From the NCBI RefSeq assembly GCF_011038655.2, contig NZ_CP064954.1, positions 1,550,001 to 1,614,000 of the forward strand: a stretch of 64,000 nucleotides of DNA. The letters run 5' to 3'. This DNA comes from Corynebacterium lizhenjunii (GTDB lineage: Bacteria > Actinomycetota > Actinomycetes > Mycobacteriales > Mycobacteriaceae). Shown one piece after another: positions 4,442 through 59,574 of the stretch (positions are counted from its first letter, which is position 1; each line of letters starts with the position of its first letter). Both the position numbers and the translations under genes were made by a program. Under the pieces are notes generated by a model. That model was not told where the DNA came from. It did no database searches and saw only the letters and a program-made list of their open reading frames with translations.

Positions 4442-5413
4442 CTAGTCCCGCCTGCAGCACTGCTCCATGCGATCCATGAACTCGTCCAAGAAACGCTGCA
4501 CGTCCACACCCACCGCAACTCGCGTTGTACAAGGCGTGCTCAACCGCCGCGGGTCCCCGATAGTGCGGCCGCGTGCTCCACCGTTATCTGGCTCGCTCTT
4601 ATCTCCCGAGCCGGTTTCACAGCGCAGATTAATCGGCAACCACTCGACCAAGCTGGGGTCCAAAGCCGCGGCAACTGCCAGCGGATCATGTAGCCCGCAC
4701 CCGCCCAGGTGCGGGCTCGTGGTGCGATATGCGTCAATGTAGTAGTCCACCATGTCCGCAAAAATCTGCCCCGTCCGGGTGCCCGACACCCGCCACTGTG
4801 TGGTCTCCTTGCAGGTCAACAGCGTCCGCAGTGTTACATCCAGGCCCACCATAGACACGTCCCGGCCGTGTTGCAGCAGGTAGTCCGTGGCCGCGGAATC
4901 TTGATACACGTTGGCCTCGGCGAAGGCGGTCACATTACCAGGAACAGTGAGGGCACCGCCCATGAAGACAATGGGGGCATCGGCAAGCTCAGGAAAATCC
5001 CGCAGGGCCTGGGCAATTGTAGTAGAAGGCCCGGTAGGAACAATGAGCAGATCGGCACCATAACGACGGTAGGCCTGCGCCAGGAACTCCACCGCGCCCA
5101 GCGTTACCGGGGACGCAGCCGGGGCGGCGGGCAGGCAGACCTCCCCCACCCCATTGCGGCCGTGAATAAAGGCAGAAACATCCAGTACCGCAAAGCCAGG
5201 ACGGGTAGGACCAGCGTAAACCGGAATCTCCGGGTGCCCCAGCACCGCTAAGAGGGTGCGGGTATTAGCCAAACTGCGCTCTACCGTGACGTTGCCGTAG
5301 GTGGCCGTGACCGCTAGCAGCTCGCACTCGCCGCGCTCGTGGCTGGCGATCGCATAGGCCAGCGCAAGGGCATCATCAATCCCAGTGTCCAGGTCCAGAA
5401 TTAAGCGGCGCAC
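4442..5413 (-). CDS. Inosine/uridine-preferring nucleoside hydrolase
   Basis: This 323-residue protein should cleave ribonucleosides to base and ribose for purine or pyrimidine salvage. The calcium and ribose-binding signature DLDTGIDDALAL is at residues 7-18. NVTVERSLANT and PTGPSTTIAQALRDFPE follow the family order, and GGCGLHDPLAVAAALDP holds the C-terminal Asp ligand. Length is normal. It starts three bases after ribF ends, so the two are almost certainly co-transcribed. Exact substrate preference cannot be read from the sequence. Confidence 0.88.
   Translation of the reverse strand: MRRLILDLDTGIDDALALAYAIASHERGECELLAVTATYGNVTVERSLANTRTLLAVLGHPEIPVYAGPTRPGFAVLDVSAFIHGRNGVGEVCLPAAPAASPVTLGAVEFLAQAYRRYGADLLIVPTGPSTTIAQALRDFPELADAPIVFMGGALTVPGNVTAFAEANVYQDSAATDYLLQHGRDVSMVGLDVTLRTLLTCKETTQWRVSGTRTGQIFADMVDYYIDAYRTTSPHLGGCGLHDPLAVAAALDPSLVEWLPINLRCETGSGDKSEPDNGGARGRTIGDPRRLSTPCTTRVAVGVDVQRFLDEFMDRMEQCCRRD
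4973..4989. repeat. Dispersed 17-base word, perfect copy
   Basis: An exact GGGGGCATCGGCAAGCT lies inside the nucleoside hydrolase gene. It encodes Leu-Ala-Asp-Ala-Pro on the gene strand. Confidence 0.65.
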
Positions 5414-5416
5414 GGG

Positions 5417-6439
5417 CTAGCCTTCCCCGGCAAGCAAAAAATACTGCTCTGGGCCCCAGCCCTTGGCGCGGGCGTCTTGGGCCAACACCTTCCGGGCAGT
5501 GGCGACATCGCGGCGCATGGCCTCCAAAAGCTCATCCACGGAATTGAACTTCACCATCGGACGCAAGTGGTCCACAAAAAACACGGTGGCATCGTGACCA
5601 TAGAGGTCAGCGTCCCGGTCGAGGACAAAGGACTCAATAGAGCGTTCCTCATCTCCAAACGTGGGGTTGGTACCCACCGAAATCGCCGCGGCATAAGCCC
5701 TGCCGGGCGTGATGTTGCCGTCCACACCAGCAGCCGTATCATCCACGCGGAACCAGCCGGCGTAGACGCCGTCGGTAGGGATAGCTATGGAGTCCGGAAA
5801 GTACTGGTTAGCCGTAGGAAATCCCAATTCCTTACCACCCCGGCCAGCTCCGCGCACCACCGGACCACACACACTAAAGTCGCGCCCCAAGGCCCAATTG
5901 GCCTGGCGAATATCCCCGCTAGCCAGCTGGCTGCGGATATACGTTGAACAGATTTTAACGCCTGCGTCTTCCAGCAAATCCTTGATGCACACATCAAAGC
6001 CATACTCCTTGCCCAACTGAGCCAGAGTCTGCGCCGTGCCGGCCGCCTGGGCGCCAAAGCTAAAGTTGCGTCCCACCACCACGTCCGTGGCCTGCAATGC
6101 GCCGACCAGCAGCGTTTCCACATAGTCGCGGGGGCTTAGGCCCGCTAGCTCGCGCGTAAAGTCGATGACCAACACGCCGTCAATTCCCAACTGCTCCGCC
6201 AGCTCTAGGCGACGATCCACAGTAGTCACCGCCAGGGGCGCGCGAGAGGGCAAGAAAATAGAGACCGGATGCGGATCAAAAGTCACCATAATCGCGCGTT
6301 TAGCAGTGGCGCGGGCCCTGGCAACGGCTTCAGTCAGCAGCGTCTGGTGGCCCCTGTGCACCCCGTCAAAGACGCCGATGCTCACCACAGCCGGGCCTAC
6401 CTGCGGCGGGAGTTGTTCAAGTCCGTACCAAATATCCAC
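5417..6439 (-). CDS. ribF: Bifunctional riboflavin kinase / FAD synthetase
   Basis: This 340-residue enzyme phosphorylates riboflavin to FMN and adenylylates FMN to FAD. The N-terminal nucleotidyltransferase half carries [11 protein letters not shown] (residues 22-32) and [11 protein letters not shown]. The C-terminal flavokinase half carries [17 protein letters not shown] and ends with the usual helical segment. Length is normal for the bifunctional form. The start is a GTG at 6439, with a plausible -10 (TAACAT) only a few bases upstream, suggesting a leaderless or near-leaderless transcript. It is divergent from truB. Confidence 0.96.
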
Positions 6440-6526
6440 GTGCTACATGTTAGAACATGGCCTAGGACGCGACCGTCGGCGCATGACGGCCGGGGCTTGG
6501 CCTGCGCAGGGGTAAGCTGAAATGCC

Positions 6527-58646: not shown

Positions 58647-58657
58647 AGCCGTCCCCT

Positions 58658-59158
58658 CTATAGCTCCAGCAGGCCCGCAGGCGGGGTGATGGTCACAGTC
58701 CCGGCCTCAAGGTCCACGTCCGGGACTATCTGCTCCACGAAGGGAATCAGTACCTCGCGGCCGCCGTCGAGGGTGACTTCCAGCAATGACTGCGCCGGGC
58801 CGTGCGCAACCCCGGCGATGGTGCCAATGGGTACGCCGGCGTGGATCACCTTGAGCCCTTCGAGCTCATGATCGTAGAAGCCGTCATCCTCGTCATCTTC
58901 AAGCGGCGGGGCGAAGAACTGGGTGCCGCGCAGGCTATCAGCGGCGGTGCGGTCATTGACCTCCTCAAAAACAATGAGCAGCCGCCCCTTATGCGGGCGC
59001 ACCGCAGCAATAGTCAGCTGATGCTCCTTCGCGCCCTGCCGGCCGTGGAGCACCTGGCCGACCGCAAACCGTACCTCTGGGGCATCCGTGGTGGCCTCCA
59101 CGGAGACTTCTCCCTTGATTCCATGGGACTTCATCACGCGACCAATCATCAATTCCAT
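58658..59158 (-). CDS. rimM: 16S rRNA processing protein RimM
   Basis: A 166-residue protein binding S19 and aiding 30S head maturation. The RimM N-terminal barrel (IGRVMKSHGIKGEVSVEATT) and the PRC-barrel region (GFYDHELEGLKV, PAQSLLEVTLDGGREVLIPF) are both present. The ATG at 59158 is chosen because a -10-like TAGAGT lies about eight bases upstream, suggesting a leaderless mRNA. It is in an operon with trmD. Confidence 0.93.
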   Translation of the reverse strand: MELMIGRVMKSHGIKGEVSVEATTDAPEVRFAVGQVLHGRQGAKEHQLTIAAVRPHKGRLLIVFEEVNDRTAADSLRGTQFFAPPLEDDEDDGFYDHELEGLKVIHAGVPIGTIAGVAHGPAQSLLEVTLDGGREVLIPFVEQIVPDVDLEAGTVTITPPAGLLEL

Positions 59159-59199
59159 GGCCACTACTCTAACCGGTGTTGTGGCCTATGATGACGGAC

Positions 59200-59574
59200 A
59201 TGGATAGCCTTCCGCTTCATGATGCCTCCACCTTCGGCACCCCACAGACCACCGGATTGGAATTCCTCGACTTGCTTGCCGATGCCCCCTCTGCCGATAC
59301 CACCCGTGCCCGCCCCGCCGTCCAGCGCCTGCACTCCGGCGCGCGAGCCAATCACATTGTCTTCACCTTTAGCCCCGGGCAAACACTGCCGGAGCACAAA
59401 GCCGCCCACCCCATCACCGTGCAGGCCTTGCGCGGTGAGGTGGAATTCAGCTGCCAGGGCACCACGCACGTGCTGCGGCCTGGGACGGCGGTCTATCTGC
59501 CCGCGTACGTAGTCCACTCCGTCCAGGCGCAGCAAGACGCAGTCATGCTGCTGATCATGCACACGGGGGACTAA
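59200..59574 (+). CDS. Small cupin-domain protein
   Basis: A 124-residue single-cupin protein. The two cupin motifs appear as FSPGQTLPEHKAAHPITVQALRGEVEF and LRPGTAVYLPAYVVHSVQAQ, giving His/Glu metal ligands. The ATG at 59200 is preferred because TATGAT at 59187-59192 looks like a -10 for a leaderless mRNA; earlier ATGs at 59188 and 59191 overlap that box. The substrate is unknown. The 17-base word encodes its Leu-Ala-Asp-Ala-Pro-Ser stretch. A 35-bp-period repeat follows the stop. Confidence 0.82.
   Translation: MDSLPLHDASTFGTPQTTGLEFLDLLADAPSADTTRARPAVQRLHSGARANHIVFTFSPGQTLPEHKAAHPITVQALRGEVEFSCQGTTHVLRPGTAVYLPAYVVHSVQAQQDAVMLLIMHTGD
59273..59289. repeat. Dispersed 17-base word, one mismatch
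   Basis: TGCTTGCCGATGCCCCC in the cupin gene encodes the same Leu-Ala-Asp-Ala-Pro-Ser peptide as the PhzF copy. Confidence 0.55.

Follow-up and report, generated by a model that had tools for sequence, protein, structure and literature searches.

DNA uptake sequences are reported only from Neisseriaceae and Pasteurellaceae in the available portion of one source (PMC12616744). Those of Neisseriaceae occur in many copies and as dialects with an invariant core, with near matches in excess and some genomes without the word, according to excerpts of PMC3630211. Excerpts of PMC1939737 further describe uptake words as free of orientation bias and placed in unconstrained parts, with graded over-representation, a debated evenness of spacing and inverted pairs that make up only ~10% of the copies. 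Here we analyzed a stretch of 64,000 nucleotides of the Corynebacterium lizhenjunii genome (contig NZ_CP064954.1, positions 1,550,001 to 1,614,000), hereafter the window, which carries a dispersed 17-bp word, GGGGGCATCGGCAAGCT. The initial annotation of the window had offered three options for this word: a DNA-uptake-like word, a binding site for a chromosome-organising protein, or a tiny mobile repeat. The first is the best supported by our results and the second fits less well; the third did not hold. We consider it probable, from the comparison of genomes, that the word acts as a DNA uptake sequence of a Gram-positive host, marking DNA of its own kind and varying in dialects. A keyword search of the open-licence PubMed Central (PMC) literature, outside which most subscription papers fall, returned no report of such a Corynebacterium word, and by keyword we found no demonstrated natural transformation in Corynebacterium in the same literature. 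In the portion available, a motif-discovery paper whose scope includes Corynebacterium describes pairs related to CRISPR in this genus (PMC5217627).

Abundance and placement of the word in C. lizhenjunii

The window contains three exact copies of the word and 29 copies with up to three mismatches, whereas 100 dinucleotide shuffles gave 0.53 on average. The three perfect copies that had been claimed are present, at 4973 (+), 22799 (-) and 24657 (-), and both orientations occur in the scan, as had also been stated. Nineteen of the 22 places listed in the initial annotation carry the word with up to three mismatches (36414 being really 36412). The other three deviate further: 52441 has four mismatches; 48926 has five, with its GGCATCGGCAGACT portion intact; and 38722, in which the core CATCGGCAAGCT has a deviating 5' flank, has more than three to the full word. 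With 29 places found, that list was also incomplete. Copies with at most two mismatches are given below; genes, here and in the rest of this genome, were called with our own crude script.

4973..4989, + strand: perfect word, in gene 4442-5413 (-), in the Leu-Ala-Asp-Ala-Pro frame
7179..7195, - strand: word with 1 mismatch, in gene 6527-7447 (+); ungapped in 3 of 4 compared relatives
14562..14578, + strand: word with 2 mismatches, GACT-ended form, in gene 11973-14753 (-)
22172..22188, + strand: word with 1 mismatch, in gene 22145-22798 (+); ungapped in 5 of 5 compared relatives
22799..22815, - strand: perfect word, at the end of gene 22795-24093 (-)
24657..24673, - strand: perfect word, in gene 24176-25000 (+); ungapped in 4 of 4 compared relatives
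27055..27071, - strand: word with 2 mismatches, genic, in a stretch rich in indels
28851..28867, + strand: word with 2 mismatches, genic; ungapped in 5 of 5 compared relatives
33150..33166, + strand: word with 2 mismatches, in gene 31950-33650 (-)
36412..36428, + strand: word with 2 mismatches, close to the end of gene 36391-37554 (-)
42545..42561, - strand: word with 1 mismatch, intergenic by our gene calls
44865..44881, - strand: word with 1 mismatch, close to the start of gene 44843-45397 (+)
49807..49823, + strand: word with 2 mismatches, intergenic by our gene calls
57517..57533, - strand: word with 1 mismatch, intergenic by our gene calls
57792..57808, + strand: word with 2 mismatches, GACT-ended form, at the end of gene 57774-58646 (-)
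59273..59289, - strand: word with 1 mismatch, in gene 59188-59574 (+)
62857..62873, + strand: word with 1 mismatch, close to the end of gene 60689-62935 (+), in a tail rich in indels

Between the copies at 57517 and 57792 a short open stretch (57590-57777) lies outside our gene calls; it is possibly the dead gene mentioned in the initial annotation.

The whole genome, a single contig of 2,607,882 bp, contains 668 copies at up to two mismatches, 334 on each strand, a density of ~1 per 4 kb, and no copy of the reversed word. We further analyzed a sample of 464 kb, consisting of the window and 20 evenly spaced 20-kb stretches. It held 115 copies at up to two mismatches, as against a mean of 7.5 and a maximum of 11 in 40 randomisations of a codon-preserving null, in which synonymous codons were permuted within genes and gaps were resampled. 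The excess over this null was 176-, 24-, 10- and 4-fold at exactly 0, 1, 2 and 3 mismatches, so near matches are graded. The word is thus over-represented beyond codon or Markov composition, as had been supposed. Of the 115 copies, 88 were wholly genic, 25 intergenic and 2 on gene edges; 59 of the 88 genic copies lay antisense, in the frame reading Leu-Ala-Asp-Ala-Pro, in agreement with the initial remark that the word usually encodes this peptide in genes. This majority is what would be expected if the recurrent peptide, or codon bias, generated the word. The 29 genic copies in other frames and the 25 intergenic ones do not fit such an origin, and permuting synonymous codons strips most of the excess (115 to 7.5). 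A peptide or codon effect as the origin of the word is contradicted by this null, and we give it practically no chance. Copies appear to prefer tolerant reading frames and linkers.

The motif profile of the copies has 17 informative positions with sharp bounds, a near-invariant GGCATCGGCA and looser ends, and shows no sequence conservation beyond the 17 bp. We also compared orthologues around the 14 genic window copies with at most two mismatches. Ten were comparable, with up to six relatives and 42 alignments in all; 22799, 36412, 44865 and 57792 were left out, being near gene ends or wanting an orthologue. Twenty-four of these alignments were ungapped, 10 had a gap in the relative and 8 in our own sequence, while random positions were ungapped in 88.7% of cases. 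Such a frequency of indels near the site (18 of 42, versus 11% at random positions) would suit a tiny mobile or duplicated repeat that spreads by insertion, as would the many identical copies and one copy, outside the window, within a 7-residue insertion. However, the alignments were ungapped at 22172, 24657 and 28851 against every relative compared and at 7179 against three of four, so the word arose by substitution at these places; the remaining compared copies are located in stretches where indels are frequent. The sharp end of conservation at 17 bp, the lack of a constant unit between close pairs, the frame preference and the graded near matches also speak against a mobile repeat, and we regard it as extremely unlikely.

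Orientation did not follow the replication arms, with 22+/28- copies on the left and 35+/30- on the right (the sign of the GC skew changes between 1.31 and 1.43 Mb), so a replichore bias is absent. Words of the KOPS or Chi type are strand-biased toward the direction of replication. A polar word of this kind, read by a translocase or a recombination enzyme and protecting or orienting own DNA, would agree with the density of the word, which is of the order of that of Chi in E. coli, and with its scarcity in foreign DNA, described below. It is contradicted by the absence of orientation bias, both in the two arms and in the equal strand totals over 184 genomes of the genus, and the Corynebacterium word is longer and graded; we consider a polar word very unlikely.

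One of the 20 evenly spaced stretches (1,430,001-1,450,000) had no copy at up to two mismatches. It belongs to a prophage, as all eight of the proteins tested match PHROGs (terminase, portal, head, tail, RecT, SSB, replication and scaffold).

about 1,418,000-1,464,600 (loci L273, L274, L042 and L275): prophage with terminase, portal, head, tail, RecT and an integrase-like frame

The absence extends from 1,423,365 to 1,468,765, a gap of 45.4 kb that covers most of the prophage and for which ~11 copies were expected from the sample density; copies at up to two mismatches reappear on both flanks. The 20-kb stretch was drawn blind, and the widening to 45 kb was chosen after it proved empty. The gap runs ~4 kb past the integrase-like frame near 1,463,235, which was taken by eye as the right end of the prophage, the left end not being fixed. 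A collection of viral contigs gave one exact match to the 17-mer, too little to be informative, and a 6-kb piece of the window matched nothing in a collection of plasmids.

Dialects of the word across Corynebacterium

An unbiased search for over-represented words in 40-kb samples of ten genomes of the genus recovered related words in eight; of the other two, G014 had only a weak CATCGGCAA and G015 none. The dialect spellings are CATCGRCAAGC, CGTCGATAAGC, CGTCGACAAGC, CGTCGGCAAGC, CGTCGTAAAGC and CGTCGCTAAGC. For the profiles of relatives, ~33-118 kb of each was sampled unless the search covered the whole genome. We then counted CRTCGNNAAGC in 242 genomes of the genus and classed them as word-rich or word-poor by the ratio to the reversed pattern, which was at least fourfold in 184, two- to fourfold in 13 and below twofold in 45. 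The 184 word-rich genomes have a median of ~1130 copies (range 153 to 2032); together they carry 104,328 and 104,144 copies on the two strands. Outside the genus, the pattern stayed near control in 348 genomes that represent 30 further genera of the family, the highest ratio noticed, in a table read by eye, being ~2.7 (G338).

Ten word-poor genomes were examined for words of their own, and two of them have an alternative spelling in which the core G is changed to A (CGCGRCGTCATcAa in G012, GGCGTCAnnAAGAA in G081). We searched 65 genomes for this CGTCA dialect as GGCGTCANNAA. Seven, which all belong to the 45 word-poor ones, had a strong enrichment, with 314 to 558 copies where the control had 14 to 21, and a few further genomes (G142, G050) showed a two- to three-fold excess. 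The general core common to the dialects is C-R-T-C-R-n-n-A-A, and the word of the window is one local spelling of it. In a tree with several weakly supported inner branches, built for 20 genomes from two proteins of the Tad locus, the A-spelling formed one clade, which contains the word-free G043 and the eroded G127; the CGTCA spelling appeared in two separate places, and word-free genomes were scattered. In G127 there is a weak CATCGGCAA remnant, with 38 copies at up to two mismatches. These two genomes are close relatives of the genome of the window in which the word is eroded or gone, yet both retain Tad, comEA and comEC sequences.

Biased uptake would best explain the coordinated change of spelling at hundreds of sites and the loss of the word in single lineages. 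The main alternative is that a nucleoid protein or another intracellular organiser of the chromosome binds the word, all along the chromosome and in either orientation. The even genome-wide spread without replichore bias would fit such a site, as would the spacing between neighbouring copies. For 693 copies in 80 stretches from 17 word-rich genomes, and with simulations preserving copy number per stretch, spacing was slightly more even than random: 147 gaps were below 640 bp, as against 181 simulated, and 0.05% of simulations were that low. The scarcity of the word in a prophage of recent date would fit as well, and so would a motif that is asymmetric, bounded and as long as a protein site. 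However, hundreds to ~2000 sites would have to change spelling jointly between clades, which is hard to achieve by selection on each site, and to vanish completely in single lineages, and 88 of the 115 copies lie inside genes. The lack of replichore bias, the dialects of the genus and the scattered word-free genomes also fit this reading less well, and we know of no candidate protein. We consider a chromosome-organising site unlikely.

An exact-word scan of named genomes placed 21 of 80 loci in Corynebacterium among the matches listed, 13 of them in C. phoceense. Repeated exact hits among these matches came from C. phoceense, C. macginleyi and KPL1814, and single ones from MSK130, ACRPS and a metagenome-assembled genome; the non-Corynebacterium loci listed are, by our reading, single hits in unrelated genomes. 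Words obtained from the word-poor G043 and G206 were discarded, as they look driven by codons or GC content. Another word-poor genome, G112 (L117, L118), has a dispersed word unrelated to the core, GCGCAATGATC, and GCAATGATC occurs in it 8 times in 40 kb.

Other repeats were seen in the relatives. At L099:12445-12540 in G127, units of 7 bp, CACAAGC/CACAGGC, form a local run. A DnaA-box-like sequence, CTGTGGATAAC, occurs in dispersed pairs of opposite orientation ~30-75 bp apart (L043:10561-10610, L046:19909-19991, L048:9977-10025), with similar pairs in L099, L100, L101 and L102. In L033 and L043 near-identical DNA follows one copy of it and runs into an ATG, which in L033 opens the gene MNEINIAALLG...

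Transformation machinery and candidate receptors

The C. lizhenjunii genome has a Tad/Flp locus at ~222-227 kb, with a TadA-type ATPase (T2SSE), two T2SSF proteins, a DUF4244/Flp pilin and two small proteins, one TadE-like without Pfam match and one Tad-like with PF13400. Genes for comEA and comEC, with SLBB+HHH and Competence domains, are found at ~1.876 Mb, and the window itself contains a further gene of the pathway.

46758..47423 (contig 1596758-1597423), - strand: dprA, DNA-processing protein of transformation, with a Pfam match to PF02481

In the actinobacterium Micrococcus luteus, Flp/Tad pili are required for transformation and comEA and comEC are present, according to the available part of PMC6370729.

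If the word is an uptake sequence, ComEA or a component of the Tad pilus that reads the sequence would bind extracellular DNA bearing it; the two small TadE-like and Tad-like proteins are the first receptor candidates. Bound DNA would then pass ComEC and recombine at homologous sites. As word-bearing alleles would be taken up more often, uptake would be biased and the word would build up wherever proteins tolerate it. The dialect would shift when the specificity of the receptor changes, and a loss of specificity would lead to erosion of the word, as the scattered word-free species suggest. G127 and G043 would be the best contrasts toward finding the receptor.

We surveyed the machinery in 80 genomes of the genus, 43 word-poor by CRTCGNNAAGC (seven of them with the CGTCA dialect) and 37 word-rich. 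All 80 had a ComEA match, which passed the cut-off in 77; for the Tad ATPase the corresponding numbers were 79 and 78. The genomes below cut-off or missing were G029, G177 and G206 for ComEA and G203 and G230 for the Tad ATPase, all word-poor; the sole ComEA match of G177 is a protein of 929 residues and probably not ComEA. Loss of comEA or tadA was rejected as the cause of word loss, since too few genomes are affected to account for the word-poor set. BLAST with the TadE-like and Tad-like queries gave no match in G081 and G206, none for TadE in G018 and none for the Tad-like protein in the word-rich G009; open frames of the TadE/Tad-like kind are nonetheless present in those genomes among the matches listed.

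Several observations weigh against an uptake sequence. Word-rich and word-poor genomes cannot be told apart by their machinery, which is almost general in Corynebacterium; because it is nearly universal in the 80 genomes, this association test has little power. In 38 of the 242 genomes, neither the CRTCGNNAAGC nor the CGTCA-dialect search found any word. The prophage gap contains four copies with three mismatches, and at least one copy with two mismatches, at 1,423,348, probably lies inside the prophage near its left part. Gaps between genes make up 17% of bases and hold 25 of the 115 copies, only a slight enrichment. The copy in the Tad-like gene, outside the window, lies in an apparent 7-residue insertion in 12 of the 14 relatives listed. 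Finally, close pairs of copies were not above random in the same 80 stretches used for spacing, unlike in Neisseria.

Of the 41 gaps below 160 bp in those stretches, 27 connect oppositely oriented copies. A terminator function through paired copies was rejected, close pairs not being enriched; inverted pairing as terminators is typical, not defining, for uptake words.

As far as genomes can tell, the word behaves like an uptake sequence. For this reading speak its over-representation on both strands with no replichore bias, the graded near matches, the clade-linked dialects, the origin by substitution wherever alignment was clean, the slightly even spacing, the scarcity in the prophage and the presence of tad/Flp, comEA, comEC and dprA. 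Somewhat more cautiously, we think that most Corynebacterium may well have an uptake word read by the Tad/Flp system, which would be the first in a Gram-positive bacterium and would extend such words to a third family of bacteria, independent of those of Neisseria and Haemophilus, and that transformation may be common in the genus.

Comparison with described dispersed words

The HIP1 word of cyanobacteria is a very frequent dispersed short word, an 8-bp palindrome. The Corynebacterium word is likewise very frequent, dispersed and short; unlike HIP1, it is non-palindromic and longer, and it has dialects.

With the uptake words of Pasteurellaceae it shares a dispersed distribution, no orientation bias, graded over-representation and, it appears, placement in unconstrained parts of genes, as far as the available portions of PMC1939737 and PMC12616744 describe them. 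It differs from them in sequence and phylum, and its core has two variable positions inside.

Were the mycolic-acid bacteria to provide a third, independent case, it would follow that recognition words arise again and again in evolution, also on another type of pilus. The uptake reading would predict natural transformation in Corynebacterium, and the changes and losses of dialect would offer a natural experiment on how a receptor reads its word. Compared with the uptake sequences of Neisseriaceae, the Corynebacterium word has another sequence and a longer flank, and its host is Gram-positive with a Tad/Flp pilus; close pairs are not enriched, and the receptors proposed here are candidates only, and no ComP-like one was found. 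In common with those sequences, it occurs in hundreds to thousands of copies per 2-3 Mb genome on both strands, with an excess of near matches and copies apparently in permissive coding sequence, and it has phylogeny-linked dialects with an invariant core, next to some word-free genomes.

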